From: Luteibacter rhizovicinus
GTDB taxonomy: Bacteria > Pseudomonadota > Gammaproteobacteria > Xanthomonadales > Rhodanobacteraceae
DNA: 64,000 bases
Assembly: GCF_004342265.1 (NCBI RefSeq)
Contig: NZ_SMCS01000001.1
Span: forward strand, 496,001-560,000
Direction of reading: 5' to 3'
Shown piece after piece: positions 7,997 through 22,261 of the stretch. Position numbers and translations under genes: made by a program. How positions within the stretch are numbered: position 1 is the stretch's first letter; the number at the start of each line of letters is the position of its first letter. The notes below the pieces were generated by a model. The model made no database searches. It was not told the origin of the DNA and saw only the letters and a list, made by a program, of their open reading frames with translations.

Positions 7997-8083
7997 TCCC
8001 TATTGTAGCCTCCGAAGCGGTCGTCATCCTCACCGTTGCGGTGCATCATGGGCCGTCCATACGGCCGTCCGGAGTTTCCCACC

Positions 8084-9025
8084 ATGATCTACGACAGCAT
8101 TCTCGACACCATCGGCAATACGCCCGTCGTCCGCCTGCACCGACTGGCCCCCAAGGGCATTCATATCTATGTAAAGGTCGAATCGTTCAATCCGGCCGGA
8201 TCGGTCAAGGACCGGCTGGCGCTGGCGATCATCCTGGATGCCGAGCAGCGCGGCACGCTGAAGCCCGGGCAGACCGTCGTCGAGGCTACGTCGGGCAATA
8301 CCGGCGTGGCCCTGGCTGCCGTATGCGCGGCGCGCGGTTATCCGTTCGTGGCGGTGATGAGCGAAACCTTCTCGATCGAACGTCGCAAGCTGATCCGTGG
8401 GTATGGCGGCAAGGTCGTGCTGACGCCGGCCGCGGCCCGTGGCTCGGGCATGGTGAAGAAGGCGCTGGAACTGTCGGAAAAACACGGCTGGTTCCTGGCG
8501 CGGCAGTTCGAGAATCCGGCCAATCCCGCCTATCACCGCAATACGACGGCGCCGGAGATCCTTCGCGATTTCGCTGGTCGACGGCTCGACTACTTCGTGA
8601 CGGGCTGGGGCACGGGCGGCACGTTGACCGGTGTGGGCGAGGTGCTGAAGGTCGCCCGTCCCGAGGTGAAGATCATCGCCAGCGAGCCGGCCGGTGCCGC
8701 GCTGCTTTCAGGGGCCGAGTGGCAGCCGCACAAGATCCAGGGCTGGACGCCGGACTTCGTTCCCGCCGTGCTCAATCGCGATATCGCCGACAAGATCTTT
8801 CCGGTCGACGATGTGACGGCCCGCGATACGGCGCGTGCGCTGGCGCAGAAGGAAGGCATCTTCGTAGGTATTTCGGCGGGTGCGACGCTGGCCGCGGCGC
8901 TGGAAGTCGCGAAGACGGCGGAGCAGGGGGCGGTGCTGCTGGCGATGTTGCCCGATACGGGGGAGCGGTATCTGTCGACGTTCCTGTTCGAGGGGGTGAA
9001 CGAAGGGTCCGACGAGATCGAGTGA
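8084..9025 (+). CDS. cysK: O-acetylserine sulfhydrylase (cysteine synthase)
   Basis: PLP enzyme making cysteine from O-acetylserine and sulfide. The 313-residue protein has the PLP-lysine motif NPAGSVKDR (Lys-42) and the substrate loop TSGNTG near residue 70. The PLP-phosphate loop GWGTGGTLTG is near residue 180, and a C-terminal GISAG lies near residue 270. The HKIQG segment favours CysK over CysM, though the two are close. The start ATG at 8084 gives MIYDSILDTIGNTP, the usual N-terminus. The upstream in-frame ATG at 8036 would add an unrelated tail. It is monocistronic, with a palindromic repeat 41 bases after its stop. Confidence 0.92.
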   Translation: MIYDSILDTIGNTPVVRLHRLAPKGIHIYVKVESFNPAGSVKDRLALAIILDAEQRGTLKPGQTVVEATSGNTGVALAAVCAARGYPFVAVMSETFSIERRKLIRGYGGKVVLTPAAARGSGMVKKALELSEKHGWFLARQFENPANPAYHRNTTAPEILRDFAGRRLDYFVTGWGTGGTLTGVGEVLKVARPEVKIIASEPAGAALLSGAEWQPHKIQGWTPDFVPAVLNRDIADKIFPVDDVTARDTARALAQKEGIFVGISAGATLAAALEVAKTAEQGAVLLAMLPDTGERYLSTFLFEGVNEGSDEIE

Positions 9026-9202: not shown

Positions 9203-10003
9203 TCAGACCACCACCAACTCAGGCCCGCCCGCCTGCAACGCTTCGCGCATATCCGCCCCGACGCTGCTATCGGTAATCACCATGTCGATCTGCGCGAGCG
9301 GCGCGATGACCGACAGGCTGCGTTGACCCAGCTTCGAGGCGTCCAGCACGGCAATCGTGACTCGCGAAATACGGATCATCAGGGCATTGAGAGACGCTTC
9401 GAGCGGATCGGGCGTGGTGACGCCGACCTCCGGGTCGAGTCCGTCCACGCCGAGGAACAGCTTGTCGGCCGACAGTCGCGACAGCGCCTGTTCCGCGTCG
9501 GGTCCGACCAGCGAGTACGACGTCGGGCGCAACAGGCCACCCAGCATCATCACGCGCACGTTCGGTAAACCGGAAAGTTCGAGGGCGATATTGAGCGCGT
9601 TGGTCACGACAGTCAGCGACTCGAATTTCATGTGCCGGATGCAGCGCGCGATCTCCACCGTCGTCGTACCCGAATCCAGGATGATCGTCTCGCCGTCGCC
9701 GATCAGTTTTGCCGCCGCCTGGCCGATGCGTTGCTTCTGTGCGAGGTGACGGGTTTCCTTGATATTGAGCGGAATGTCCACGGACAGCGACGAGGCCGGA
9801 ATGGCGCCGCCGTGCGAGCGCACGAGGCTGCCGGTACGCGACAGCGCTTCGAGATCGTTGCGGATGGTCACCGAGGAGATGCCGAAGCGGCTGGCGAGTT
9901 CTTCCACCGTGCCACGACCGTACTGCTCGACGAAATCCACGATCAGCCGGCGTCGTTCCTCGACCAGCAATTTTTGCCCGGCTATCCCGGCCGTCCGATT
10001 CAT
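9203..10003 (-). CDS. agaR: DeoR/AgaR-family transcriptional regulator of the sugar locus
   Basis: The 266-residue protein has the DeoR architecture. An N-terminal helix-turn-helix (EERRRLIVDFVEQYGRGTVE, then SRFGISSVTIRNDLEAL) at about residues 16-60 is followed by a DeoR effector domain with the phosphosugar-sensing ILDSGTTT and VVTNALNIALEL segments. Family members usually repress sugar operons and are released by a phosphorylated sugar. AgaR of E. coli controls N-acetylgalactosamine and galactosamine genes. Its ATG at 10001-10003 overlaps the amidohydrolase stop (ATGA), making it the last gene of the aldolase-amidohydrolase-regulator operon. It probably controls both divergent arms of the locus. 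The symbol reflects family resemblance and context, not proven specificity. Confidence 0.85.
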   Translation of the reverse strand: MNRTAGIAGQKLLVEERRRLIVDFVEQYGRGTVEELASRFGISSVTIRNDLEALSRTGSLVRSHGGAIPASSLSVDIPLNIKETRHLAQKQRIGQAAAKLIGDGETIILDSGTTTVEIARCIRHMKFESLTVVTNALNIALELSGLPNVRVMMLGGLLRPTSYSLVGPDAEQALSRLSADKLFLGVDGLDPEVGVTTPDPLEASLNALMIRISRVTIAVLDASKLGQRSLSVIAPLAQIDMVITDSSVGADMREALQAGGPELVVV

Positions 10004-11241
10004 GTGGCGATCCCCAGCAGGCGTGCGGCGTTATCGTGATAGATCTTGCGCAGTATCGTATCGGAAAGCTTCAGTCCGTAGATCGACCAACGGCCTTGTG
10101 GCGGTACGTCGGCCGGCGCGTAGTCGAAGTATTCGTCGTCGGTTTCCAGGAAGCGATAGTAGATCTCATACAGCTCGTCGCAGAAAAGCTGCTGCGGCAC
10201 CTCGTTGCCCCACGGCGCCGGCACGGCGTCCGTGCCGAACATGATCCGGTCCTGGTAACGGTCGAAGAACGCCTGCGCCGCACGGGGCTGGCGGCCGAGC
10301 TCGCCGATACGGGCACTGATGTCGACCATGGTGTTGGGAAAGCGGTCCAGCGTGCGTGCCACTTCGGCAAGATGTTCCGCGTGGTTGCCCACATGCATCA
10401 GCGCGAAGGTGGTGCGCGGATGGCGGGCTATCATGCGGTCGCGTGCCGCCAGCAGTTCGGCATTGCCCGGGAACTGCGGTCCGTAGAACGACCAGTCGGG
10501 ATGCTGCGCAAGTTCTTCGTAGCGTTCGTTGGTCGCGTCGGCGGGAAGGAAGAACGCCTCCGGGTCGGATATGTGCAGGAAGACCGGCATGTCGTATCCC
10601 GCGCAGGCTTCCCACATGGGATCGAAACGAGCGTCGTCCACCGTCACCAGTTCGCCTTCGTCGACGCCTTCCCGAAGATAGAGGCCCAACGTTTTCAGCA
10701 GTTTCAGCCCGCGCGCACCGACGCGATGCGCGTGGTCGATCGCCTCGGCCTGGTGCTGCGGATAGTCCGGCTCGGCGAAGAGGCCGAACGACGGCTCCGT
10801 CAATGTCAGGAAGCGGCCGGGCGCGGCATGGTCGAACTGCGCTATCGCCGATTCCAGCCCCGCTCCGGTGCCACCGGTCAGGTTGACCAGGGTTTTCACA
10901 CCCTTGCGGTCCATGACCGGAAGCAAGGCATCGGGCGTGGCGAACACGTCGATGTCTTCGCCGACCGATACGCCGTTGCGCACGTCGCGCGTCCAGGTCA
11001 GGTGCGTATGCATGTCGATGACGGGGAAGCGCGGGCGTTCTACGCGTGTCGCCGGCAGGTGCAACATGCTGCGCGGCCGGAAGTCGCTCAGCGGCAATGA
11101 CGCCTTCTCCGTATCGGGCGCGGTGCTGAGCTGGTTTCTGCGCGGCGCGCCGAGAGGCGGCGCGCAACAGAATCCGGCCATGTGACATCCGCGCAGTCGC
11201 GGAGGCTTTGCGTGTGGTTCGCGCCGGCGCGTATGGATCAT
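10000..11241 (-). CDS. Amidohydrolase_2-family metal-dependent hydrolase
   Basis: A TIM-barrel hydrolase of about 413 residues. Visible metal or catalytic elements are DMHTHL, GARGLKLLKTLGL, VFLHISDPEAFF, FALMHVGNH and MFGTDAVPAP, in the order expected for Amidohydrolase_2 (PF04909) proteins. These act on lactones, carboxylates or amides, and the substrate cannot be read here. I chose ATG at 11241 because GAGGT lies six bases upstream. The conserved part begins only at LSDFRPRSMLHLP, so a start at 11181 is possible. It is followed by agaR with a 4-base overlap and preceded by the aldolase gene. Within a sugar locus it may be a lactonase or a sugar-ring hydrolase. It does not look like a NagA/AgaA deacetylase. 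Confidence 0.8.
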   Translation of the reverse strand: MIHTRRREPHAKPPRLRGCHMAGFCCAPPLGAPRRNQLSTAPDTEKASLPLSDFRPRSMLHLPATRVERPRFPVIDMHTHLTWTRDVRNGVSVGEDIDVFATPDALLPVMDRKGVKTLVNLTGGTGAGLESAIAQFDHAAPGRFLTLTEPSFGLFAEPDYPQHQAEAIDHAHRVGARGLKLLKTLGLYLREGVDEGELVTVDDARFDPMWEACAGYDMPVFLHISDPEAFFLPADATNERYEELAQHPDWSFYGPQFPGNAELLAARDRMIARHPRTTFALMHVGNHAEHLAEVARTLDRFPNTMVDISARIGELGRQPRAAQAFFDRYQDRIMFGTDAVPAPWGNEVPQQLFCDELYEIYYRFLETDDEYFDYAPADVPPQGRWSIYGLKLSDTILRKIYHDNAARLLGIAT

Positions 11242-11277
11242 TGGCTTACCTCGACCTGCCTCGTGCATGCGCTGCGC

Positions 11278-12195
11278 TCAGCGCGGATAGCGCGCCATGA
11301 TCTCGTGAACCGCGCGGGTAAGCGCGACGGCCTGATCGAACGGCCGCAGCCACATGTTTCGTCCGAACATCACGCCGGTGGCGCCGGCCTGCATGTAGAA
11401 CTCGACCTTGCGCAGCACCGCCGCGTCGTCGTCGTCCTTCACGCCGCCAGAGAACAGCACCATGGTGCGGCCGGCCGAACGAACCACCCGTGCGCTACGC
11501 GTCGCGGCATCTTCTTTCAGCGAATCGTACGGAGCGGGTACGCCGGCGACGCTGTCGTCCGGCTCGTGCAGCTTGACCAGATCGGCGCCCAGTTCCAGTG
11601 CGACGCGCGCGGCATAGTCCTGCGCGAATAACGTGTTCTTGCCGCCCTTGGCATCGATGCCCGCGCCGCGTGGGTAGGACCACACGACCAGCGGCATGCC
11701 GAAGCGTTCGCAGTCCTGGCGCACTTTTTCGAACTGGCGCAGTTCGTCGTGCTGTCGCGGCGAGCCGACGTAGAACGTGTAACCGGCAGCGTCGGCCCCG
11801 AGGCGCACGGCGTCTTCGACGGACGCGAACAGTGGCGACGTCGCGTCGCCGTCGTCGGGAATATTGGTCTTGCCATTGAGCTTGAGGATCAGCGGCACGC
11901 GCCCGCAGTACTCGCCCATGTACTTCTCGGCCAGACCGACACCGAGCGCGATCGCGGAGAAACCGCCGGCCTCGGCGAGGCGGAACTGATAGTCCGGATC
12001 CAGCGCGGGCGGGTTAGGGAAGAAGTCGGTCGGGCCGTGTTCCAGCCCCTGGTCTAGGGGCAGTACCAACAGCGTGCCGTTTGCCGGCCCGTGCCGGTAA
12101 AGCATCCGGTGAAGGCGGGTGCGCTTGCCGTGGGAAAGCGAAAGACCGCTCAGAAGGGATGGTGCGTGTCCGAGGGGTTGTGCATTTCGTTTCAT
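11278..12195 (-). CDS. Class I DhnA-type fructose/tagatose-bisphosphate aldolase-like protein
   Basis: A 305-residue DeoC/FbaB/LacD-superfamily aldolase. The N-terminal LLVLPLDQGLEHGP is the hallmark of archaeal-type class I fructose-bisphosphate aldolases. The probable Schiff-base lysine is in LGADLVKLHEP. The phosphate-binding end is LFSGGVKDDDD with GVMFGRN. Class I aldolases of this type split ketose 1,6-bisphosphates into DHAP and glyceraldehyde 3-phosphate. In this locus, with an AgaS-like isomerase and a LacC/FruK-like kinase, tagatose 1,6-bisphosphate is the likely substrate (inference). The start ATG at 12193-12195 gives MKRNAQPLGHAPS. It is the first gene of the minus-strand operon and diverges from the agaS-like gene across 63 bases. 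Confidence 0.87.
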   Translation of the reverse strand: MKRNAQPLGHAPSLLSGLSLSHGKRTRLHRMLYRHGPANGTLLVLPLDQGLEHGPTDFFPNPPALDPDYQFRLAEAGGFSAIALGVGLAEKYMGEYCGRVPLILKLNGKTNIPDDGDATSPLFASVEDAVRLGADAAGYTFYVGSPRQHDELRQFEKVRQDCERFGMPLVVWSYPRGAGIDAKGGKNTLFAQDYAARVALELGADLVKLHEPDDSVAGVPAPYDSLKEDAATRSARVVRSAGRTMVLFSGGVKDDDDAAVLRKVEFYMQAGATGVMFGRNMWLRPFDQAVALTRAVHEIMARYPR

Positions 12196-12233
12196 TTCGA
12201 ATACCCTTGTTTGAAGCTTCGAATACTTTCGTT
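12185..12233. promoter_or_regulatory. Candidate AgaR/DeoR-type operator in the divergent promoter region
   Basis: TTTCGTTTCATTTC at 12185-12198 matches the core of the pattern reported for E. coli AgaR sites (TTTCRTTTYRTTTY, quoted from memory). A second TTTCGTT lies at 12227-12233, exactly 42 bases (four helical turns) away. TTCGAATAC is also repeated 22 bases apart at 12197-12205 and 12219-12227. The first element overlaps the aldolase start codon. The region is AT-rich compared with its surroundings. Binding by the local AgaR-like protein is inference. Confidence 0.5.
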
Positions 12234-12258
12234 CGATAGCATATTTAAGCAAATACGC

Positions 12259-13440
12259 ATGCCTGTCAAACAAAATGCAGCACAAACGGAACTCGACGCG
12301 TTGTCGGCCGCACCCCTGGAAGCCCAGCGGGCGGCGGGCTACGCCCATACTCTTGCCGAGATCCTCCAGCAGCCCTCGACATGGCGGGAAACCGCCAGAG
12401 CCCTTGCCGGAAGCGGCGTGCTCGACGAGACGTTGCAAGGCGGCGTCCGCAGCATCGTGCTCACCGGCTCGGGGAGCTCGGTCTACGCGGGCGAAGCGAT
12501 CGCGCCGGCGTTGCAGCGGAGTACCGGCGTTCCGACGCTGGCCATCCCGGCGGGTACCTTGCTGACCCATTGGCGCGAGGTGCTGCCGGCGGATAAGGGC
12601 GTCCTGGTTTCCATCGCGCGTTCCGGCGACAGCCCGGAAAGCTGTGGCGCGGTCAGCCGTCTTCTGACACACCGGCCCGACGTCCGGCACGTCGTGCTTA
12701 CCTGCAATGCGCAGGGGCAGTTGGTCACGCGCTATCGCGACGACGAGCGTGTCGAGGCGGTCGTTCTGGCCGAACGCACCAACGATCGCAGTCTGGTGAT
12801 GACCAGCAGCTTCTCCAATCTGATGCTGGCCGGGGCATTGCTCGCGGACGCGACGATTGGCGCGGACGCAGTCGAGTCGGTCGCAAACGCTGCCGAAACG
12901 GTCTTCGGCGAACACGCCGACGATATCGCCCGTCTTGCCCGTGGCGATGTGCGTCGCGTTCTGTATCTCGGAAGTGGCGGCGGTGTCGGTGCGGCGCGCG
13001 AGTGCGCGCTGAAGATGCTGGAGATGACGGGCGGTCGCGTCACTACCATGGCGGAAAGCTTCCTCGGCCTGCGCCACGGACCGATGGCGAATGTCGATGC
13101 GCACACGCTGATTGTCGCGTTCCTTTCCACCGATCCCGTCGTGCGGGCTTACGAGACCGATCTTCTCGCCGAGCTTGCCGCGAAAGGTCTGGGCATGGCG
13201 CGCATCGTGGTGGGTGCCGATGTGCCCGCCATGGCCGGCGACAGCGACGATGTGGCCATCGAACTGCCGATGCTGCGCGACGTTGGCGATACGCTGGCGT
13301 TGCTGCCCGCCGTGGTCGTCGGTCAGCTGCTCGCATTCTTCCGCTGCCTCGCGCTGGGATTCGCTCCCGATACGCCGTCGCAGGGCGTTCTCACCCGTGT
13401 CGTGGGCGAGTTCGTCATGCATAGCGAGGACGCGCCATGA
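12259..13440 (+). CDS. agaS: SIS-domain sugar isomerase/deaminase (AgaS-like)
   Basis: The 393-residue protein contains two SIS phosphosugar-binding domains. The first carries IVLTGSGSSVYAGEA near residue 66 and SIARSGDSPES near residue 117. The second carries VLYLGSGGGVGAARECALK near residue 235, then MAESFLGLRHGPM. That arrangement is typical of AgaS, which deaminates and isomerises galactosamine 6-phosphate to tagatose 6-phosphate. It differs from GlmS in lacking a glutaminase domain. The start ATG at 12259 gives MPVKQNAAQTELD. No clear ribosome-binding site is visible. It is the first gene of the plus-strand arm, and its stop overlaps the next start (ATGA). The substrate is inferred from family and neighbours. 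Confidence 0.85.
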   Translation: MPVKQNAAQTELDALSAAPLEAQRAAGYAHTLAEILQQPSTWRETARALAGSGVLDETLQGGVRSIVLTGSGSSVYAGEAIAPALQRSTGVPTLAIPAGTLLTHWREVLPADKGVLVSIARSGDSPESCGAVSRLLTHRPDVRHVVLTCNAQGQLVTRYRDDERVEAVVLAERTNDRSLVMTSSFSNLMLAGALLADATIGADAVESVANAAETVFGEHADDIARLARGDVRRVLYLGSGGGVGAARECALKMLEMTGGRVTTMAESFLGLRHGPMANVDAHTLIVAFLSTDPVVRAYETDLLAELAAKGLGMARIVVGADVPAMAGDSDDVAIELPMLRDVGDTLALLPAVVVGQLLAFFRCLALGFAPDTPSQGVLTRVVGEFVMHSEDAP

Positions 13441-14360
13441 AACGCATCCTCGTCGCAGGCGAAATCAACGTCGACTTCGTGTTTCGCGATCTGACGGCTT
13501 TTCCTGCGCCGGGCAATGAAGTACTCAGCGGCGGTTTCGAGCAGACGCCGGGCAGTTCCTCGATGATCTGCGCGATGGGGCTGGCGCGGCTCGGCAATCC
13601 GGTGATTTTCGCCGGTGTCGCGGGCGGCGATCCGCTGGGCGATTTCTGTATCGATGCCATGCGCTCGCGCGGCATCGATGTGTCGGCGGTAACGCGCGAC
13701 GCCAGCATGGCCACGGGCGTGACCGCTTCGTTGTCCACGGGAGGCGACCGCGCGCTGGTGACGTTTGTCGGCGGCATCGGATCGTTGAAGGCCGAGCATA
13801 TCGACGACGCGCTGCTTCGCGGCGCCGACCATCTGCATGTTTCGTCGTACTACCTGCAACGCGGTCTGCGCTCGGGATGCCCGGAGCTCTTCGCGCGTGC
13901 ACGTACCGCCGGTCTGACGATTTCCCTCGATCCCGGTTTCGATCCCGAGCAGCGCTGGGATGACGGTATCGCCGCGCTGCTCGATACGGTCGACGTGTTT
14001 CTTCCGAACGAGCGGGAGCTGCTTGCGATTACCGGCAGCGACGATGTTTCCAGTGCGCTGGCATCCCTTGCCGGACGACGGGCCGCGATCGTCGTGAAGT
14101 GCGGTGCCGATGGCGCCGCTACCTGGCTTGGCGGCGGTCTGCTCGTCGAGCCCGCCTATACCGTTCCGGTCGTCGATACGACCGGTGCGGGCGATTCGTT
14201 CGTCGCGGGATTCCTGCACGCATACCTGCGCGGACTGCCTCCGGCGCATTGCCTGCGCTGGGGCAACGCTTGCGGAAGTCTGTCGACCCGTGGTGTCGGC
14301 GGCACGCCGGCGCAGCCCGATGTCGCCGAGGTAGCGCACCTGCTGGACAGGGCCGCGTGA
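13437..14360 (+). CDS. PfkB-family carbohydrate kinase (ribokinase-like)
   Basis: A 307-residue sugar kinase that overlaps the AgaS-like gene by four bases. The first PfkB signature region (GGFEQTPGSSSMICAMGLAR) binds the sugar near residue 36. The C-terminal signature VDTTGAGDSFVAGFLHA, with the catalytic aspartate and anion hole, is near residue 245. The hallmark dibasic turn of nucleoside kinases is absent. The phosphate acceptor cannot be fixed. One possibility is the incoming hexosamine or hexose, leaving the downstream kinase to make the bisphosphate. The next gene also overlaps by four bases (GTGA), so the three are translationally coupled. Confidence 0.85.
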   Translation: MKRILVAGEINVDFVFRDLTAFPAPGNEVLSGGFEQTPGSSSMICAMGLARLGNPVIFAGVAGGDPLGDFCIDAMRSRGIDVSAVTRDASMATGVTASLSTGGDRALVTFVGGIGSLKAEHIDDALLRGADHLHVSSYYLQRGLRSGCPELFARARTAGLTISLDPGFDPEQRWDDGIAALLDTVDVFLPNERELLAITGSDDVSSALASLAGRRAAIVVKCGADGAATWLGGGLLVEPAYTVPVVDTTGAGDSFVAGFLHAYLRGLPPAHCLRWGNACGSLSTRGVGGTPAQPDVAEVAHLLDRAA

Positions 14361-15313
14361 TCGCGGTCGCTGGCTTCAACACCGCGATCGACCGGCTCAT
14401 CACGCTGGATCGGTTGGTTGTCGGCGAAGTCAATCGCGCAAGCGAAGTCAGAACCTTCCTGGGCGGCAAGGGCGTGCATGTGGCGCAGACGGTGGCCGCG
14501 CTCGGCGAGCGTGTGCAACTGGTCGGCCTGATCGATGCGGCTACGCGCAACGAAGCCACGCGTCTCATGAGCGAACGCGGCGTGTTGTTCCATGCGGTCG
14601 AGATCGAGGGCGACCTGCGCTCGTGCCTCAGCATCCGCGATGCGAACGGCCATATCACCGAAATTCTGGACGGTGGGAACGAGGTGCCGAAAGCGCAGCG
14701 CAGCGCGTTGATTCAGGCGCTTCTCACGGCGCTGACCGATAGCGACACGGTCGTGCTGTCCGGAAGTCTGCCGCGCGGTTTCGACGCACATACCTATGCG
14801 GAACTCGCCTTGCATATCGGCTCGGCCGGTAAGCGCTGCCTTGTCGACACGAGCGGGCAGGCGCTGGCGCATGCCGTCGCCGTGCGGCCATTTCTGGTCA
14901 AACCCAATCGCGACGAGGCGTCCGCTCTGTCGGGCGTGGCGCTGTCGACCGTGGCCGATGGCGTGCGCGCTGCGGCAACGTTGCTGCGGTCGGGGGTGAC
15001 GATGCCCGTGGTCTCGCTGGGCGAACTGGGTGTGATCGGCATCGATGCATCCGGTGCGTGGCATGCGCGCGCCGCGCTGGGCGGGCGCGCGGTCAACGCG
15101 GTGGGATCGGGCGACTGCCTGATGGCCGGTCTTGCGGTCGGTCTCGTGCGTGGCATGGCGCTGTGCGACGTCCTGCAACTGGGCGCGGCCTGCGGTGCCG
15201 CCAATGCCATGAATGACGAAACGGGTTACGCCAGTGCCGACGACATTGCGTACTGGCATGCGCGCGTGCGGGTCGAACGCGTCGCTTCGGGGAATTCCAG
15301 CCCGCCGGACTGA
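14357..15313 (+). CDS. PfkB-family hexose-phosphate kinase (LacC/FruK-like tagatose-6-phosphate or 1-phosphofructokinase)
   Basis: A 318-residue kinase starting at GTG 14357-14359, overlapping the preceding stop. The N-terminus IAVAGFNTAIDRLI, GGKGVHVAQTVAALG near residue 35 and VLSGSLPRGF near residue 135 are typical of the LacC/FruK/PfkB-phosphosugar branch. The C-terminus carries NAVGSGDCLMAGLAVGL, in which the usual TGAGD appears as VGSGD, as in LacC/FruK. It most likely phosphorylates a hexose phosphate to the 1,6-bisphosphate consumed by the DhnA-type aldolase. Having two PfkB kinases side by side suggests two successive phosphorylations (inference). Confidence 0.85.
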   Translation: MIAVAGFNTAIDRLITLDRLVVGEVNRASEVRTFLGGKGVHVAQTVAALGERVQLVGLIDAATRNEATRLMSERGVLFHAVEIEGDLRSCLSIRDANGHITEILDGGNEVPKAQRSALIQALLTALTDSDTVVLSGSLPRGFDAHTYAELALHIGSAGKRCLVDTSGQALAHAVAVRPFLVKPNRDEASALSGVALSTVADGVRAAATLLRSGVTMPVVSLGELGVIGIDASGAWHARAALGGRAVNAVGSGDCLMAGLAVGLVRGMALCDVLQLGAACGAANAMNDETGYASADDIAYWHARVRVERVASGNSSPPD

Positions 15314-15397
15314 TCGGAACTCAGCGGTGGGACCACACGCCTGTGCGGGCTGGGGAGAGGCCGGCACGGTGCGTTAAACAGCAACGGGGAGCAGGGC

Positions 15398-18300
15398 ATG
15401 TCTGTCGAGGGTAAATCTGTCTGGAACCGTCCGGTCGCCAGTACCGGGCGTCGATGTCTTCTTGCCATGGCGTTGGCAATTGCTCTGGCGAACGGTGCGC
15501 AAGCGCAGTCCATCACCGGTGGCCTGTATGGCCGCGAAGCCGGCGGCGTGACCGTACAGGTCAGCAATGCGAGTACCGGATTCCGGCGCGATCTCGTCGC
15601 GGACAAGGACGGCAAGTACGCGATGTCCGGCCTCAATCCCGGTACGTATGAAGTCACCATCGTGCACGGTGGCCAGGCCGTCGGCAGCCGCACGATCAAC
15701 GTCGTCGCCAATAGCCTGACCGCCGTATCCGCCGTGGAAATAACGGCCGGGGCCCCGCCCGGCGCTGTCGATGCGCGAACGCTCGACGCGGTGAACGTAA
15801 GTTCGATGGTCACGACGACAGTCAATCCGATTGACGTCAGTACGCCGGAACTGGCCACCAACTACAGCATGAAGCTGGTCAACCAGCTGCCCACCGGCCG
15901 CAGCATGGAAAGTATCGCCCTGCTCAAATCCAGCGTGCGCTACGACGACCAGACTACGAATCTCGTGCAGATGGGTGGCGCCAGCCCCGGCGAGAATCGT
16001 TACTACTACAACGAATTCGATACGACTTACGACTTCAGCGGACTGGGCGCTTCGCGTCTTCCGCCGGAGGCGATCAGTTCGACGCAGGTGATTACGGGTA
16101 ACTTCGGTACGTCCTGGACGAGCACCACGGGCGGCATCACCGCCGCCACGGTGCGTCAGGGTACGAACGATTTCAAGGCGGGCTATTCGCTGTACTTCGA
16201 GCCTCCGACATCGCGGTTGCTCAATCCGCGCGATCACGATTCGCTGACCCGCGACGGCGACTACTACAAGTTCAACCGTGCCAACCATCATGGCGGGCAG
16301 GTGACGGATCAGTACCTGTGGGCATCCGGCGCGGCAGTGCGCGACAAGGTCTTTTATTTCGTGATGCTGGGCAATAGTCCCGCGTCGACGGCGACCAGTT
16401 ACAAACAGAATCTCGAAACCGACCGCAGCACGCGCGACAAGAACGCGCTGGTGAATCTCACCTGGAACATCACCAGCAATCAATCGGTCAACGTTGTCGG
16501 CTATCGCGACTGGACGAACCAGTTCGATAACCAGTACACGCTCGATTCGGATTACGAGCCGGCATCGCGTGGAAGTTATTACGGATGGGCGGCGGTACAG
16601 ACCAAGAACCAGTTCCTGATCGGCAATTACCACGCGCAACTGACCGACGATCTCAGTTTTCGGCTGATGGGCGGCTATCTCAGCCAGAGCCAGCTGCAGC
16701 CGACGTCCAGTTCGGGAAGCGGCCTGCCCTACGTGCAGGAGCAGGATCCCGTCACCAAGATCAATCGCAACATCGGTGCCGGCAATGCGACCGGTCAACT
16801 CTTGCCGTTCGAGTACTGGCGCCGCGGATTCAAGGGCGACTTTACCTGGCAGCTTGGCGATCACCGGATCACGGCGGGCGCGGAGCATTACAAGCACTTC
16901 ATCAACCAGCGCATGGAAACCACGGAAGGCGGGTACTACACGTACTACAACCAGCCGGGAGTCATTCTGGACAACGGATCGCCGTCTCCGGCGGACGGAC
17001 GTTACGTATCCCAGTACTACAACAGTAACGGCGGATCGTTCTATACGGTCAACAAAGCCGCTTATATCGACGACAACTGGCAGGTCAGCGACAACGTCGT
17101 CCTGTACGGCGGCGCCCGGTTCGACGTCTTCATTAACAAAGACGTCAACGGCAATAACTTCCTCCGGTTGCCGCTGACGTCGCCGCGCCTCGGCATCGCG
17201 TGGGACGTGGAAGGCGACAGCTCGCTGAAGGTTGGCGCGAACGCGGGAAAATACACGATTCCCATTCCGTCGACGGTGAATAACGGAGCCGCGACCGCGG
17301 TGACCCGTTATACGAAGTACTACACCTATACCGGGATGGACCCGGTCACCAAGGCACCCACGGGACTCACGCAGATCGGCGATACGAATTATCTGTTCAA
17401 CGGACTGGCCCCCACGCCCGAACAGATCAGTACGTCGAACATCACGGCTCCTTACCAGTACGAGTTCCAGATCTACGTCCAGAAGCAGCTGGGCAGCGCG
17501 TGGGCTGCTCAAGCCGAGATCGGATACACGAACCTGAAGAAGACGATCGACGACACCTGTTACCTGGACAGCATCAATGCGTACGCGCGCAGCCATGGCT
17601 ATCCGGATTACACCGAGAAAAACGCCTGTTTCCTGCTCAACCCGGGCAGCGACGTCCAGCTGAAGCGCGATTTCAGGGGTGACGGCAACACGGAATCGCT
17701 GACTATTCCCGGCAGCGAATTCGGCATGCCGGCGGCGAAGCGCCGCTACTACCACATGACGCTGGAACTGACCCATGCGTCCACCCCCGATGCGCCGTAC
17801 TTCCTCGATCTGAGCTACACCTGGGCTCATCTGTACGGCAATACGGATGGCTACATCGACCTGGGGCACCGGGTAAACGGCGCGGCGGGCGAGCAGGTGC
17901 TGTTCGACTATCCGGGCCTGATGGTCGGCGGCACGGGCAATCTGACCGGCGATATCCGGAACGCCGTGACGGCGTCGGGCATCTACTATTTCCCCGGTGG
18001 CGTACGCGTCGGCGGTATCCTCAACATGCATACCGGTTCGCCGCTGAATTGTTTCGGCACCTATCCCGATCAGAGCGACCCAGCCTACCAGTACGGTCCG
18101 TCGAGTCACTTCTGCGACAGCAAACTATCGCCGCTGGGGCATGCGAAACGGTTGCCGTTCTTCTGGGCGCTGAATCTTTCGGTCGGCTACGACTGGCAGA
18201 TCGATAAAGAGAACGCGCTCAGTGTGGATGTCCAGATGCAGAACGTGACGAACCGGCAGGGCATCGTCAACCGTGAACAAACCTATGACGAAGGTGTTTT

Positions 18301-18400
18301 CACCGCGCAGGGCGACTCCGTCCACAACCCGGCCTACGGCTCGCCGTCCTGGCAGACGCCGCGCACGACCTCGCTGATTCTTCGGTATACCTTCCGCTGA
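15398..18400 (+). CDS. Oar-type TonB-dependent outer-membrane receptor
   Basis: A 1000-residue outer-membrane protein. It has a signal peptide (cleavage expected after residue 36, AQA/QS). A carboxypeptidase-regulatory-like beta-sandwich domain follows at about residues 38-115 (GGVTVQVSNASTGFRRDL, GLNPGTYEVTI). A plug-like region, with LPTGRSMESIALL and ITGNFGTSW, and a long aromatic-rich beta-barrel complete it. The protein ends in RYTFR, with the aromatic C-terminus usual for BAM substrates. GGGAG lies six bases before ATG 15398. Members of this family import large substrates such as peptides or glycans through TonB. Its place between the sugar kinases and an exported glycoside hydrolase makes glycan-fragment uptake likely, which is inference. 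It starts 84 bases after the kinase stop. Confidence 0.9.
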   Translation: MSVEGKSVWNRPVASTGRRCLLAMALAIALANGAQAQSITGGLYGREAGGVTVQVSNASTGFRRDLVADKDGKYAMSGLNPGTYEVTIVHGGQAVGSRTINVVANSLTAVSAVEITAGAPPGAVDARTLDAVNVSSMVTTTVNPIDVSTPELATNYSMKLVNQLPTGRSMESIALLKSSVRYDDQTTNLVQMGGASPGENRYYYNEFDTTYDFSGLGASRLPPEAISSTQVITGNFGTSWTSTTGGITAATVRQGTNDFKAGYSLYFEPPTSRLLNPRDHDSLTRDGDYYKFNRANHHGGQVTDQYLWASGAAVRDKVFYFVMLGNSPASTATSYKQNLETDRSTRDKNALVNLTWNITSNQSVNVVGYRDWTNQFDNQYTLDSDYEPASRGSYYGWAAVQTKNQFLIGNYHAQLTDDLSFRLMGGYLSQSQLQPTSSSGSGLPYVQEQDPVTKINRNIGAGNATGQLLPFEYWRRGFKGDFTWQLGDHRITAGAEHYKHFINQRMETTEGGYYTYYNQPGVILDNGSPSPADGRYVSQYYNSNGGSFYTVNKAAYIDDNWQVSDNVVLYGGARFDVFINKDVNGNNFLRLPLTSPRLGIAWDVEGDSSLKVGANAGKYTIPIPSTVNNGAATAVTRYTKYYTYTGMDPVTKAPTGLTQIGDTNYLFNGLAPTPEQISTSNITAPYQYEFQIYVQKQLGSAWAAQAEIGYTNLKKTIDDTCYLDSINAYARSHGYPDYTEKNACFLLNPGSDVQLKRDFRGDGNTESLTIPGSEFGMPAAKRRYYHMTLELTHASTPDAPYFLDLSYTWAHLYGNTDGYIDLGHRVNGAAGEQVLFDYPGLMVGGTGNLTGDIRNAVTASGIYYFPGGVRVGGILNMHTGSPLNCFGTYPDQSDPAYQYGPSSHFCDSKLSPLGHAKRLPFFWALNLSVGYDWQIDKENALSVDVQMQNVTNRQGIVNREQTYDEGVFTAQGDSVHNPAYGSPSWQTPRTTSLILRYTFR

Positions 18401-18530
18401 CGGAATCGCGGACGCATCGCATCGGCCTGGATCGACGCCGGTTGCGCGACACTTTCATACGGGCATCCCGCCAGATGCCCAACGTAGAACCGGCGCCGCA
18501 CACCCGGCGGCGCCCCGACAGGACAACGAC

Positions 18531-21515
18531 ATGCAGTCAGTTTTTCGAAATGCGGCGATCGGATTGGCAGCGACTTTTGCTTCCATCATGGCTACCGGCA
18601 GCGACGTCAACCCTCCGGAACAGCGCTGGAATGCCGCGGTGTACGGTAACCATCGCTATCTTGTCTCTGTCGCGAAGGCTGCCGATGCGGTTCGCGTCAC
18701 ACTGCCATGGCGTCGTCGCGATGCCCATCCGGAGAGCGTCGAGACGATCGTCGTCGGCCCGGACGGCAAGCGCGTCGAGCACGTCTGGCGACAGGAAATA
18801 ACGCAGGCAAGCGGCACGCTGGTCTTCGCCGCCGCGAAAGCCGGGACATACGCTGTCTACTACCAGCCGTACGATCAGGACGGGCGATCGAACTATCCGA
18901 CGGTGAAGTACCGGAAGCCTGACGAAGTCGACGCCGCCTGGCAGGCCGCCGTGGCCAAGCGCACGCATATTCCCGACGCGGGTGTCGTCGGGTATGAGGC
19001 GGTCGACGACTTCGATGCCTATACGGACATGGAGCGTGTGGCCGACCCGGCCGCCATGCAGAAACTTCGCGCGGGTCTGCAGGCGAACGTATTGCAGGTC
19101 TTTCCCGAAGACCGGTCGCACGTCATTCGCATGTTCGACGCGATCCCGCAGCGCTGGGCCGAACGCGGGCCCGGCGGCACGCTGGCGATGGAAAGCGCGC
19201 CGGCCGGTTTCGTCAGCGCGCAGCTCGGTGTCTGGGCCGCGAATGCGCCTTTGCAGGACGTGTCAGTGCGCTTCGGCGACCTGACCGGTCCGTCGGGTGC
19301 CGTGATTCCGGCTGCGGCGTGGACCTCCTTCAGCAACGGTGGCACCGACTATGCAGGCAAGCCCTTCGTTAGCCGCGTGGATGTGCCGGCCGGCAAGGTG
19401 CAGGCATTGTGGGTGGGCGCGGATCTCGATGCCGGGCTGCCGGCAGGCGTCTATCGCGGAACCCTCGCGGTGAGTGCCGCCGGTCTTCCCACGCACGATG
19501 TGCCGGTGTCGTTGACCGTTACGGGCACTCCCGCGAAAGACCATGGCGACGACGAGCCGGCGAACCTGACGCGTCTGCGCTGGCTGAATTCGCGACTGGC
19601 CCAGGACGATTCGGTGACGCGTCCACTTAAGCCGGTGACGAGACGCAACGACAAGCTATCCATTCTCGGCCGCGACATCGAGCTGGATTCCGTAGGCATG
19701 CCGGCACGCATCGGCAGTTATTTCGACGAGCGCATGACGCGTCTGGACGATACGTCCCGCGCCTTGCTCGCGGCACCGATGCGGCTGATCGTCGAAGGTC
19801 CGGGTGGTGTGCGCGACATGAAGGCAACCGGCCGGATGGCGTTCACCCAGCCTGGCCCCGGCAAATTGCAATGGCGTACCGAGGGACGAGCGGGAGACGT
19901 GCAACAAACCGTCGATGCAACGCTGGAAGCGGATGGCACGCTTTCGTACCAGATAGCCCTGACCTCGCCACGGGCCGTCGATCTGAGCGATATCCGTTTT
20001 GAAGTGCCGCTCAAGCTCGATGCGGCGCGCTACATGCTGGGTCTCGGCCGCACGGGCGACACGGTGCCGAAGCAGTTCGACTGGCAGTGGAACGTCGAGC
20101 ACAACCAGGACGGTCTCTGGATCGGCGATGTGAACGCCGGTCTCGAACTGCATCTGCGGGACGAGCACTACAGCCGCCCCCTGAATACGAACTTCTATCA
20201 TCAGAAGCCGCTGGTGATGCCGGGTTCGTGGGACAACGGCGGGAAAGGCGGTATCCGGTTGCGGCAGGATAGCGATGCGTATCGCGTCGTCGCGTTCAGC
20301 GGACCGCGGCACATGCAGGCGGGCGAGACGCTGCGTTACGACATCGTCATGCGCGTCACGCCGTTCAAGACGATCGATCCGGTGGCTCATTTCGCGGAGC
20401 GTTTCTTCCATAAATACGGCCCGCTTGCGGATATCCAGGCGCAGGGAGCCAATGTGGTGAACATCCACCACGCGACGCCGATCAATCCGTGGATCAACTA
20501 TCCCTTCCTGACGCCCGACGCCATGCGCGCTTATGTCGACGAGGCGCACCGGCGCAACATGCGGGTGAAGATCTACGACACGGTGCGCGAACTATCCAAC
20601 CGTTCTCCCGAGCTGCCGATGCTCGAAAGCCTCGGACACGAGGTAATCAGCGCAGGGAAGGGCGGGGGTGCCTCGTGGCTGCAGGAACATCTCGACGGCG
20701 ATTACATTCCCGCCTGGTACGTTCCGGAAATCCGCGATGCCGCTGTTATCAACGCGGGCCAGAGCCGTTGGCACAATTACTACATCGAAGGGCTGGACTG
20801 GGTTGCCCGTAATGTCGGCATCGATGGCCTGTATCTGGACGATGTCGCTTACGACCGCACGACGATGAAGCGGGTGCGCAAGGTGCTGGACGCGCGTCGT
20901 CCGCATGCGCTGATCGACCTGCATTCGGCCAATCAGTACAACCCTCGCGATGGCTATATCAATAGCGCGCTGCTCTACATGGAGCTGTTCCCGTATATCG
21001 ATCGCCTGTGGTTCGGCGAGGAATTCGATTATGAGGGGACGTCGCCCAATTACTGGCTGACCGAACTGTCCGGCATTCCCTATGGCCTGATGGGCGAGAT
21101 GCTGCAGCACGACGGCAATCCATGGCGCGGTATGGTGTTCGGCATGACCAACCGGCTTGGCTGGTCCGACGGCAGCGACCCGCGTCCGTTGTGGAAAGCC
21201 TGGGATGCGTTCGGTATCGAGAAGGCCGAGATGATTGGCTGGTGGGTGCACGACGCGCCGGTTCGTACCGGTCGCGACGATGTGCTGGCGACGAGTTATG
21301 TCCGCGATGGACAGACAATGATCGCTATCGCGTCGTGGGCGAAAACGCCTGTCGAAGTGCACTTGTCGATCGACTGGAAAGCGCTCGGTATCGATGGAGG
21401 CAAGGCGACGTTTGTCGCGCCCGCGATAGACAAGTTCCAGGCGGGCAGGGAGTGGCGGCCGGGTGACGCGATCGAGGTGGCGCCGGGTAAGGGCTGGCTG
21501 ATCGTCGTGAAGTGA
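18531..21515 (+). CDS. Exported GH123-like / DUF6067 glycoside hydrolase
   Basis: A 994-residue protein with a short signal-like N-terminus (MQSVFRNAAIGLAATFASIM). The first half is beta-rich, with a VYYQPYDQDGRSNYP segment and several sandwich-like repeats. The second half is a TIM-barrel-like domain with WNVEHNQDGLWIGDVNAGL, NIHHATPINPWINYPF, GIDGLYLDDVAYDRTTMKRV, LIDLHSANQ, RLWFGEEFDYEG and GIPYGLMGEML. This block pattern is that of glycoside-hydrolase-like proteins related to GH123 (DUF6067). Characterised GH123 enzymes are exo-beta-N-acetylgalactosaminidases. Acidic residues in YLDD and WFGEEFD are the obvious catalytic candidates. It follows the Oar-type receptor by 130 bases and probably acts in the periplasm or at the surface. 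The exact glycan is unknown. Confidence 0.8.
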   Translation: MQSVFRNAAIGLAATFASIMATGSDVNPPEQRWNAAVYGNHRYLVSVAKAADAVRVTLPWRRRDAHPESVETIVVGPDGKRVEHVWRQEITQASGTLVFAAAKAGTYAVYYQPYDQDGRSNYPTVKYRKPDEVDAAWQAAVAKRTHIPDAGVVGYEAVDDFDAYTDMERVADPAAMQKLRAGLQANVLQVFPEDRSHVIRMFDAIPQRWAERGPGGTLAMESAPAGFVSAQLGVWAANAPLQDVSVRFGDLTGPSGAVIPAAAWTSFSNGGTDYAGKPFVSRVDVPAGKVQALWVGADLDAGLPAGVYRGTLAVSAAGLPTHDVPVSLTVTGTPAKDHGDDEPANLTRLRWLNSRLAQDDSVTRPLKPVTRRNDKLSILGRDIELDSVGMPARIGSYFDERMTRLDDTSRALLAAPMRLIVEGPGGVRDMKATGRMAFTQPGPGKLQWRTEGRAGDVQQTVDATLEADGTLSYQIALTSPRAVDLSDIRFEVPLKLDAARYMLGLGRTGDTVPKQFDWQWNVEHNQDGLWIGDVNAGLELHLRDEHYSRPLNTNFYHQKPLVMPGSWDNGGKGGIRLRQDSDAYRVVAFSGPRHMQAGETLRYDIVMRVTPFKTIDPVAHFAERFFHKYGPLADIQAQGANVVNIHHATPINPWINYPFLTPDAMRAYVDEAHRRNMRVKIYDTVRELSNRSPELPMLESLGHEVISAGKGGGASWLQEHLDGDYIPAWYVPEIRDAAVINAGQSRWHNYYIEGLDWVARNVGIDGLYLDDVAYDRTTMKRVRKVLDARRPHALIDLHSANQYNPRDGYINSALLYMELFPYIDRLWFGEEFDYEGTSPNYWLTELSGIPYGLMGEMLQHDGNPWRGMVFGMTNRLGWSDGSDPRPLWKAWDAFGIEKAEMIGWWVHDAPVRTGRDDVLATSYVRDGQTMIAIASWAKTPVEVHLSIDWKALGIDGGKATFVAPAIDKFQAGREWRPGDAIEVAPGKGWLIVVK

Positions 21516-21535: not shown

Positions 21536-22198
21536 TTACGAGTAACGCTCTTCCAGCCATGGATCGGCATGGTTGTTGTAACCGCGCACCTCCCAGAATC
21601 CCGGTTCGTTGTCCACGCGGAATTCGATGCGCCGCACCCACTTCGCGCTTTTCCACAGATAGAGATGGGGAATGATCAGGCGCACGGGGCCGCCGTGTTC
21701 GCGGCTGAGAGGTTTGCCTTCCCAGCTATGCGCCAGTAACGCGCCTTCGGCGGCGAAGTCTTCCATCGTGACGTTGGTCGTGTAGCCATCGTAGGAATGC
21801 AGTACGACGTGCCGGGCTTCGGCGCGCGGCCGCACGGTCTCGAGGAAGTCGCGGGTGGCGACGCCCTGCCAGTGATTGTCGTAGCGGGACCAGGTCGTGA
21901 CGCAGTGGATATCCGACGTCAGATCGGTTTGCGGCTGCCGACTGAACGAAGCCCAGTTCCAGCAGGCTTCCTCTTCTACCGCGCCGTCGATTTCGAGGTG
22001 CCAGACGTTCAGTGGAACATCGGGTTGAACGCCCAGGTCGAGTACGGGCCAGTTCTGGACGAGATGCTGTCCTGGCGGAAGACGTTCGCTATCGGGTCGC
22101 GCGTGGCGACCCGTGAGGAATTTACCCTCGCGTGCCCATTCCTGTTTGCTGCGGGTGAGCTTGGAATCCGGCCTTTCCTGCGGGTCGTTCGACGACAT
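21536..22198 (-). CDS. Sulfite-oxidase-like molybdopterin oxidoreductase (YuiH type)
   Basis: A 220-residue cytoplasmic-looking protein with the oxidoreductase molybdopterin-binding fold. It shows PLNVWHLEIDG, then TSDIHCVTTWSRYDN with the probable molybdenum-ligand Cys-99, then GYTTNVTMEDF, EHGGPVRLIIPHLYLWKSAKW and GFWEVRGYNNHADPWLEERY. These blocks are those of the small sulfite-oxidase-like proteins such as YuiH. No Tat signal, haem domain or MsrQ-like membrane partner is visible nearby, so it is probably not MsrP. The physiological substrate is unknown. It converges with the glycoside hydrolase gene 20 bases away and lies downstream of a small ORF on the same strand. Confidence 0.88.
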   Translation of the reverse strand: MSSNDPQERPDSKLTRSKQEWAREGKFLTGRHARPDSERLPPGQHLVQNWPVLDLGVQPDVPLNVWHLEIDGAVEEEACWNWASFSRQPQTDLTSDIHCVTTWSRYDNHWQGVATRDFLETVRPRAEARHVVLHSYDGYTTNVTMEDFAAEGALLAHSWEGKPLSREHGGPVRLIIPHLYLWKSAKWVRRIEFRVDNEPGFWEVRGYNNHADPWLEERYS

Positions 22199-22261
22199 GG
22201 CGGCATTCTCGGAGACAAGACACGAAGATGCGCCGGGACGACCCCGCCGGCAAGCGTCGGG

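Follow-up and report, generated by a model that had tools for sequence, protein, structure and literature searches.

The Gram-positive LacC-LacD branch uses a PfkB-family tagatose-6-phosphate kinase followed by an aldolase of the DeoC/LacD family, and in Escherichia coli the regulator AgaR belongs to the aga/gam regulon. This regulon comprises AgaS and a tagatose-6-phosphate stage (PMC3668189) as well as uptake by a phosphotransferase system (PTS), AgaA and KbaY/KbaZ (PMC12118421). The Shewanella-type Aga pathway (AgaK, AgaA-II, AgaS, AgaP) is a non-PTS system with an outer-membrane receptor, a kinase and AgaS (PMC2996990, PMC12118421), and in an enzyme pair described for Flavonifractor plautii, N-acetylgalactosamine (GalNAc) is deacetylated on the glycan before galactosamine (GalN) is removed by a galactosaminidase of glycoside hydrolase family 36 (GH36; PMC11762096). 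Here we describe a cluster of eight genes in a 64,000-nucleotide stretch of Luteibacter rhizovicinus (contig NZ_SMCS01000001.1, positions 496,001 to 560,000; the window), which probably encodes a variant of the known GalNAc/GalN route with several textbook enzymes replaced by unrelated ones.

All eight open reading frames were found at or near the coordinates of a first reading made from the letters alone (the sequence-only reading), and its three 4-base overlaps were confirmed at 10000-10003, 13437-13440 and 14357-14360. The aldolase start was placed at about 12195, within a longer open reading frame of 714 amino acids (11278-13422). Pfam and NCBIfam likewise agreed with the assignment of an AgaR/DeoR regulator, an AgaS-like protein, a DhnA-type aldolase, two PfkB kinases and an Oar-type receptor. 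Six of the genes form a core, in which agaR, the amidohydrolase and the aldolase diverge from agaS, pfkB1 and pfkB2. Like the Shewanella-type pathway, the locus combines an outer-membrane receptor, a kinase and a probable AgaS in a non-PTS setting. It differs in that a PfkB protein stands for AgaK, the cluster lacks both a deacetylase of the NagA type and the permease AgaP, and a class I aldolase plus PfkB2 takes the place of GatZ. With the E. coli regulon it shares AgaR, a probable AgaS and the proposed tagatose-6-phosphate stage, whereas PTS uptake, AgaA and KbaY/KbaZ are features of E. coli. The order of kinase and aldolase proposed here is that of the LacC-LacD branch, although the kinases of the window score far below the LacC cut-offs and the aldolase is nearest to a class I fructose-bisphosphate aldolase (1ojx).

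The proposed route would start with the release of the amino sugar by an exported hydrolase, a role taken here by the PF19543 protein and in most relatives by a GH36-like enzyme. Fragments of the glycan would enter the periplasm through the Oar-type receptor. Within the cell, PfkB1 as a 6-kinase and the amidohydrolase as an N-deacetylase would yield GalN-6-phosphate, which AgaS would convert to tagatose-6-phosphate and ammonia. PfkB2 would then form tagatose-1,6-bisphosphate, to be cleaved by the class I aldolase. It is considered fairly probable that the cluster works by these steps, as a horizontally mobile module which serves the use of GalNAc-containing glycans under the control of AgaR.

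This reading is mainly based on the conservation of the cluster. Matches to agaS at E<=1e-30 were sought in 197 genomes of the family and obtained in 82 of them, at 85 places, the surroundings of which were all fetched and mapped by tblastn. Genes in all fetched loci were called with a simple caller trained on the window; since it missed genes in the Acidobacterial loci described below, tblastn was used there. PfkB1 and a close amidohydrolase were each present in 69 of the 85 loci and both in 68 (window included), while the two loci with only one of them, L228 and L238, lie on separate contigs of the same fragmented assembly (G087). The most conserved gene was the aldolase (77-87% to the window copy). 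Since the six-gene core recurs across the family, it is not a chance arrangement.

The lower half of the pathway showed a clear pattern of exchange. The aldolase was found in 64 loci, PfkB2 in 63 and GatZ in 16; aldolase and GatZ occurred together in none of the 85, and PfkB2 was absent from all 16 GatZ loci. In three loci with PfkB1, AgaS and the amidohydrolase (L071, L094, L100), GatZ replaces PfkB2 and the aldolase. Four loci comprise neither aldolase nor GatZ nor PfkB2 (L093, L212, L224, L225), with PfkB1 and the amidohydrolase kept in L224 and L225. A ROK or BadF kinase was present in 12 of the 85 loci, none of which comprises PfkB1. Since three of the 16 GatZ loci also hold PfkB1 and the amidohydrolase, the exchange of the lower half does not depend on that of the upper one. 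In the upper half, PfkB1 plus amidohydrolase occupy the position that a ROK or BadF kinase has in other loci. The parts of the cluster thus behave as exchangeable modules, and the locus points to a GalNAc catabolism that is put together, in soil Gammaproteobacteria and Acidobacteria, from modules able to replace each other. GatZ/KbaZ has been assigned a C4-epimerase activity between fructose-6-phosphate and tagatose-6-phosphate (PMC11907403). Because one epimerase stands in for kinase plus aldolase, the exchange supports tagatose-6-phosphate as the intermediate common to both kinds of loci, and hence a GalN/GalNAc pathway. Together with the conserved core and the GalNAc-type hydrolases of relatives, it also supports the galactosamine-type route put forward in the sequence-only reading. 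Altogether, GalN/GalNAc is quite likely the substrate.

Several loci departed from this scheme. Two genomes carry two separate agaS loci with differing enzyme sets (L079 and L093 in G172, L211 and L212 in G163), and one locus with the block (L227, G124) showed two amidohydrolase matches of 80% and 72%. In five AgaS-GatZ-BadF loci (L098, L099, L230, L231, L232), genes for an EamA transporter and a melibiase-like enzyme accompany a remote Amidohydro_2 gene, the product of which begins in a signal-like manner and shows 28-31% identity; within this group the Pfam scan covered L099.

Table 1. Features of the cluster and their assignments (window coordinates)
Feature	Coordinates	Strand	Remarks
agaR-like DeoR-family repressor	9203..10003	-	NF040755 AgaR model over cut-off; 4-base overlap with amidohydrolase gene
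Amidohydro_2 metal hydrolase, candidate GalNAc de-N-acetylase	10000..11181	-	PF04909, 7e-30; start 11181 or 11268
Class I DeoC/LacD-family (DhnA/FbaB-type) aldolase, probable tagatose-1,6-bisphosphate aldolase	11278..12195	-	PF01791
Candidate AgaR operator region	12185..12233		TTTCGTTTCATTTC at 12185-12198, overlapping aldolase start; CTTCGAATACTTTCGTT at 12217-12233
AgaS-family SIS protein, probable GalN-6-phosphate deaminase/isomerase	12259..13440	+	TIGR02815 below cut-off; nearest solved structure 3c3j
PfkB1, ribokinase-like, candidate GalNAc or GalN 6-kinase	13437..14360	+	PF00294
PfkB2, LacC/FruK-type, probable tagatose-6-phosphate kinase	14357..15313	+	TIGR03168 over cut-off
Oar-type outer-membrane receptor	15398..18400	+	PF13620 and PF25183
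PF19543 protein, signal-like start; GH123 N-terminal domain and second region	18531..21515	+	PF19543, 1264 bits

The SIS protein found its nearest solved structure in 3c3j (3.8e-53). PfkB2 scored 255 bits with TIGR03168, the model of the 1-PFK subfamily (cut-off 216), while it remained far below the cut-offs of the specific LacC models. The aldolase, a class I enzyme of the DeoC/LacD family, reached no NCBIfam aldolase cut-off; its nearest solved structure is 1ojx, which we take to be an archaeal enzyme, and one of its lysines aligns with a lysine of 1ojx at what is presumably the Schiff-base position. Class I chemistry had been listed as an odd point, but appears less odd as LacD belongs to the same Pfam family. 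The idea that it is a sign of a different sugar was rejected. Altogether, the proposed roles of AgaS, PfkB2 and the aldolase are likely. PfkB1 exceeded no NCBIfam cut-off, and its function as an amino-sugar kinase is assumed with moderate confidence. Its weak similarity to fructoselysine 6-kinase (70.9 bits compared to a cut-off of 247; 21 models) and the missing local AgaA/NagA would also fit a cluster for GalN only, or for another amino or ketosamine sugar such as an Amadori compound, with the SIS protein acting as a deglycase; pairs of SIS and PfkB proteins occur in fructoselysine pathways as well. However, the AgaS-family model and AgaS-like crystal structures are nearest to the SIS protein, and the exchange with GatZ and the GalNAc-type hydrolases of relatives also speak against this explanation, which is regarded as quite improbable.

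Of the eight genes, that of the amidohydrolase deserves the most interest. As recognized before, the amidohydrolase is not of the NagA type: it matched PF04909 only, found no NCBIfam model at E<=0.001 and does not belong to Amidohydro_1, the family of NagA and AgaA. It has now become the candidate for the missing deacetylase. His18, His20, His163, His223 and Asp278 were invariant in all 81 alignment rows and form the HxH, His, His, Asp pattern that we take to be the metal ligands of Amidohydro_2 enzymes. Among 587 candidate stretches, at least 438 were confirmed as relatives, of which the best 80 were kept; these included proteins of 61-67% identity in Acidobacteria and in one Verrucomicrobial metagenome-assembled genome. 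In the 24 Acidobacterial/Verrucomicrobial loci, AgaS was found in 7, PfkB1 in 5 and the full five-enzyme set in 2 (L168, L172), and in L177 the gene adjoins one for a Glucosamine_iso protein. A literature search, patchy for subscription papers, yielded no amidohydrolase in a GalNAc pathway and no GalNAc use in the genera concerned. The amidohydrolase is tentatively regarded as the N-deacetylase of the pathway, and possibly as a new kind of this enzyme, with a probability somewhat below even. With its at least 438 relatives, the family provides a specific candidate for the missing step. Near the Acidobacterial amidohydrolase, a DUF5107/TPR protein was observed in L161, L168-L171, L174, L175, L178 and L179.

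Several observations weigh against the proposed route. AgaS, for which TIGR02815 (agaS_fam) was the best family, scored 283 bits and remained below the cut-off of its own family (529). As already stated in the sequence-only reading, no inner-membrane permease is encoded by the eight genes, among which the family scans revealed no PTS component and no ROK/BadF kinase either. The 85 loci are related, so that their counts are not independent events. The predicted model of the amidohydrolase (mean pLDDT, a per-residue confidence score, of 80.5; built from 20 sequences) has ACMSD, decarboxylases, lactonases and hydratases as its neighbours at a TM score of about 0.5, and we know of no deacetylase among such ACMSD-like structures. 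Furthermore, AgaS was not seen in 17 of the 24 Acidobacterial/Verrucomicrobial loci, several of which lie on short contigs, and the neighbouring proteins scanned there (10, then 5 more) comprise peptidases of families M17 and M19, a pyrroloquinoline quinone enzyme and a permease for amino acids, besides CBM9 and BNR-repeat proteins. Finally, a nagA match was obtained in all 82 agaS carriers. Since all carriers have nagA and NagA and AgaA replace each other in E. coli (PMC3668189), a dedicated deacetylase is not required.

The latter points lead to another explanation for the same GalN/GalNAc pathway, in which an unlinked NagA would deacetylate GalNAc-6-phosphate while the amidohydrolase does a different job, e.g. 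the removal of acyl groups or lactones from glycans. The absence of NagA/AgaA noted in the sequence-only reading holds true for the locus, but not for the genome, which carries an unlinked nagA on contig C6 (350 bits) with a GluP/NagP-type permease upstream (373 bits); both kinds of gene had been suggested as targets of a search. Judged by eye from the N-termini, a GntR-like regulator and a SIS protein lie around this nagA, while the upstream genes encode a receptor and proteins resembling a kinase and a hexosaminidase. Besides this gene and the ubiquity of nagA, the 17 amidohydrolase loci without visible AgaS favour such a division of labour. On the other hand, 68 loci link the amidohydrolase with PfkB1, and L079 (G172) and L204 (G179), from which this amidohydrolase is absent, hold a ROK kinase and a local NagA-like Amidohydro_1 gene instead (called by Pfam scan in L079, and by tblastn at 88-89% identity in L204). 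Among the genomes listed, two nagA matches appear in G172 and G179 only, and the second match of each is presumably this local gene. Altogether, deacetylation by the unlinked NagA has a considerable probability, albeit below one half. Two expectations were not borne out by the genomes: nagA is not absent from the window genome, and block-bearing genomes without nagA did not occur (0 of 82 agaS carriers).

The N-termini of the amidohydrolases point to a further variant of the proposed route. A hydrophobic, twin-arginine (Tat)-like signal containing RR was recognized by eye in 22 of the 24 Acidobacterial/Verrucomicrobial proteins (exceptions L157 and L167). In contrast, 52 of 56 proteobacterial proteins (L101-L156) showed a tail of the form CxCC[AST]PP without an evident signal, which occurred in none of the 24; the window protein, which is not among the 56, comprises GFCCAPP. 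Signal peptides were judged by eye; a loose RR expression fired in 23 of the 24 but also in 15 of the 56, and a hydrophobicity count (threshold used 1.2) in 9 of the 24 compared to 2 of the 56. Because a sugar phosphate in the cytoplasm is out of reach for an exported enzyme, the substrate is perhaps unphosphorylated GalNAc. Accordingly ordered, Amidohydro_2 would act first, either on unphosphorylated GalNAc or on alpha-GalNAc glycans followed by a GH36-like galactosaminidase, and PfkB1 would be a galactosamine 6-kinase; the enzyme would be Tat-exported in Acidobacteria and cytoplasmic, with the new tail, in Proteobacteria. The F. plautii pair resembles this order in that a GH36-like enzyme and the candidate deacetylase occur in the same loci of relatives, whereas the proteobacterial amidohydrolases have no evident signal and the resemblance of the PF19543 protein comes from a poor model. 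Deacetylation before phosphorylation is considered rather unlikely. If true, both the deacetylase family and the sequence of the steps would be new, and the family could also supply further deacetylases such as those used with galactosaminidases on the A-antigen.

Compared to the metabolic core, the genes for the hydrolase and the receptor are less firmly connected. The label 'GH123-like' was appropriate for the N-terminal domain of the exported protein: PF19543 ('GH123_N') covers residues 32-994, and the profile matched solved GH123 enzymes, beta-N-acetylgalactosaminidases, within positions 212-326 only. PF13320, which we take to be the catalytic GH123 model, was not among the families at E<=1, so that no catalytic domain was detected. 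The predicted structure is poor (mean pLDDT 58.9, with values under 50 over most of 682-909), and its top structural matches, the GH36 galactosaminidase of F. plautii followed by GH123 over about 170 columns, are weak hints. A profile comparison with the GH36-like enzyme, based on few effective sequences, showed no relation. PF19543 occurs in 41 of the 197 family genomes, mostly unlinked to agaS; linkage was observed in 3 of the 85 loci (window, G187 with L063, and G081 with L061/L062), although fragmented assemblies may hide some. Elsewhere in the phylum it was found in 1 of 398 genomes, the window's own, which is also the only positive control of that search. The idea of GH123 as the core enzyme releasing beta-GalNAc was rejected on these grounds. 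The PF19543 gene of L054 (G124) contains an in-frame TAG, and a DUF5107/TPR protein adjoins PF19543 in two genomes (L063 13656-16397, L062 152-2380).

The usual partner is a GH36-like protein, which lies within 14 kb in 59 of the 63 other full blocks. Its DDGW and K-x-D motifs (residues according to PMC11762096) were conserved without exception in 17 of 17 rows, its profile weakly matched the alpha-galactosidase 6lcj (E 0.0014), and Pfam gave Melibiase_C at E 0.06 and nothing over cut-off. In the three loci looked at, it has a signal-like start. No match was found in the window genome in a search without positive control; in the window, the PF19543 protein takes the place of this enzyme. Other hydrolases beside the block in relatives are GH109, GH31 with NPCBM, GH35 (in the fetched region of 23 of the 63), NAGLU (GH89) and melibiase-like enzymes, and by their families they fit GalNAc-type glycans as the source. 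A protein without Pfam match, P0003, read as GH79-like, was seen beside the block in L070, L072, L076 and others.

A same-strand receptor match within 14 kb was found in 55 of the 63 other full blocks, many being distant paralogues at 27-30%, and relatives of 57-61% occur in 9 other fetched loci. The conservation of all eight genes suggested as a check was confirmed for the six-gene core, but neither for PF19543 nor fully for the receptor, which in 28 of the 63 was at least 50% identical to either of the two receptors used as queries. Both results would be expected if the two genes were chance neighbours and the unit consisted of the six metabolic genes. This is regarded as unlikely, since receptor matches and the GH36-like exported enzyme accompany most other full blocks, 35 of the 41 PF19543 carriers also carry agaS compared to 82 of 197 genomes overall (related genomes), and the linked PF19543 copies of G081 and G187 come on top of unlinked ones.

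For the regulator, the AgaR model NF040755 was exceeded with 265.4 bits (cut-off 260). The divergent region contains TTTCGTTTCATTTC, which matches without mismatch what we take to be the E. coli AgaR core. This core has 3 exact copies in the genome, the two others lying inside called coding genes, and with at most one mismatch 13 matches were obtained compared to 6 for the reversed control. CTTCGAATACTTTCGTT matches a second pattern with one mismatch, but 2 matches in the window compared to 1.09 expected are not significant. Of 65 sequences of the divergent region (window counted twice), 57 share ten-base words of TTCATTTCGAATA; as these words span the aldolase start, their conservation may in part stem from coding or ribosome binding.

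Within Luteibacter, the locus is accessory, with AgaS in 7 of the 19 genomes of the genus set. The closest relative found, G594 (92% at 8048-9025), showed no match to the agaS region at the DNA level except for two short ones in the receptor gene. Its left flank is kept up to the contig end, about 310 bases past the gene at 8048-9025, and its right flank from window position 22254, where the right-hand contig continues for about 10 kb with other sequence. At the island edges looked at, neither a common word of at least 10 bases nor a nearby tRNA was found. In the tree, the window amidohydrolase groups with 36 rows from Dyella, Rhodanobacter, Frateuria, Fulvimonas and a further member of the Rhodanobacteraceae (support 99/95), with a weak placement inside this group (81/77), while three Luteibacter rows fall in another set. 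Since it groups with Dyella and Rhodanobacter rather than with these Luteibacter rows, this fits a transfer within the family. Beside the cluster, the gene at 8036-9025 was labelled by eye as cysteine synthase. Of 23 genomes of the genus, only that of the window showed the molybdopterin oxidoreductase gene at 21536-22198, and for this reason it is probably part of the same accessory stretch as the cluster.

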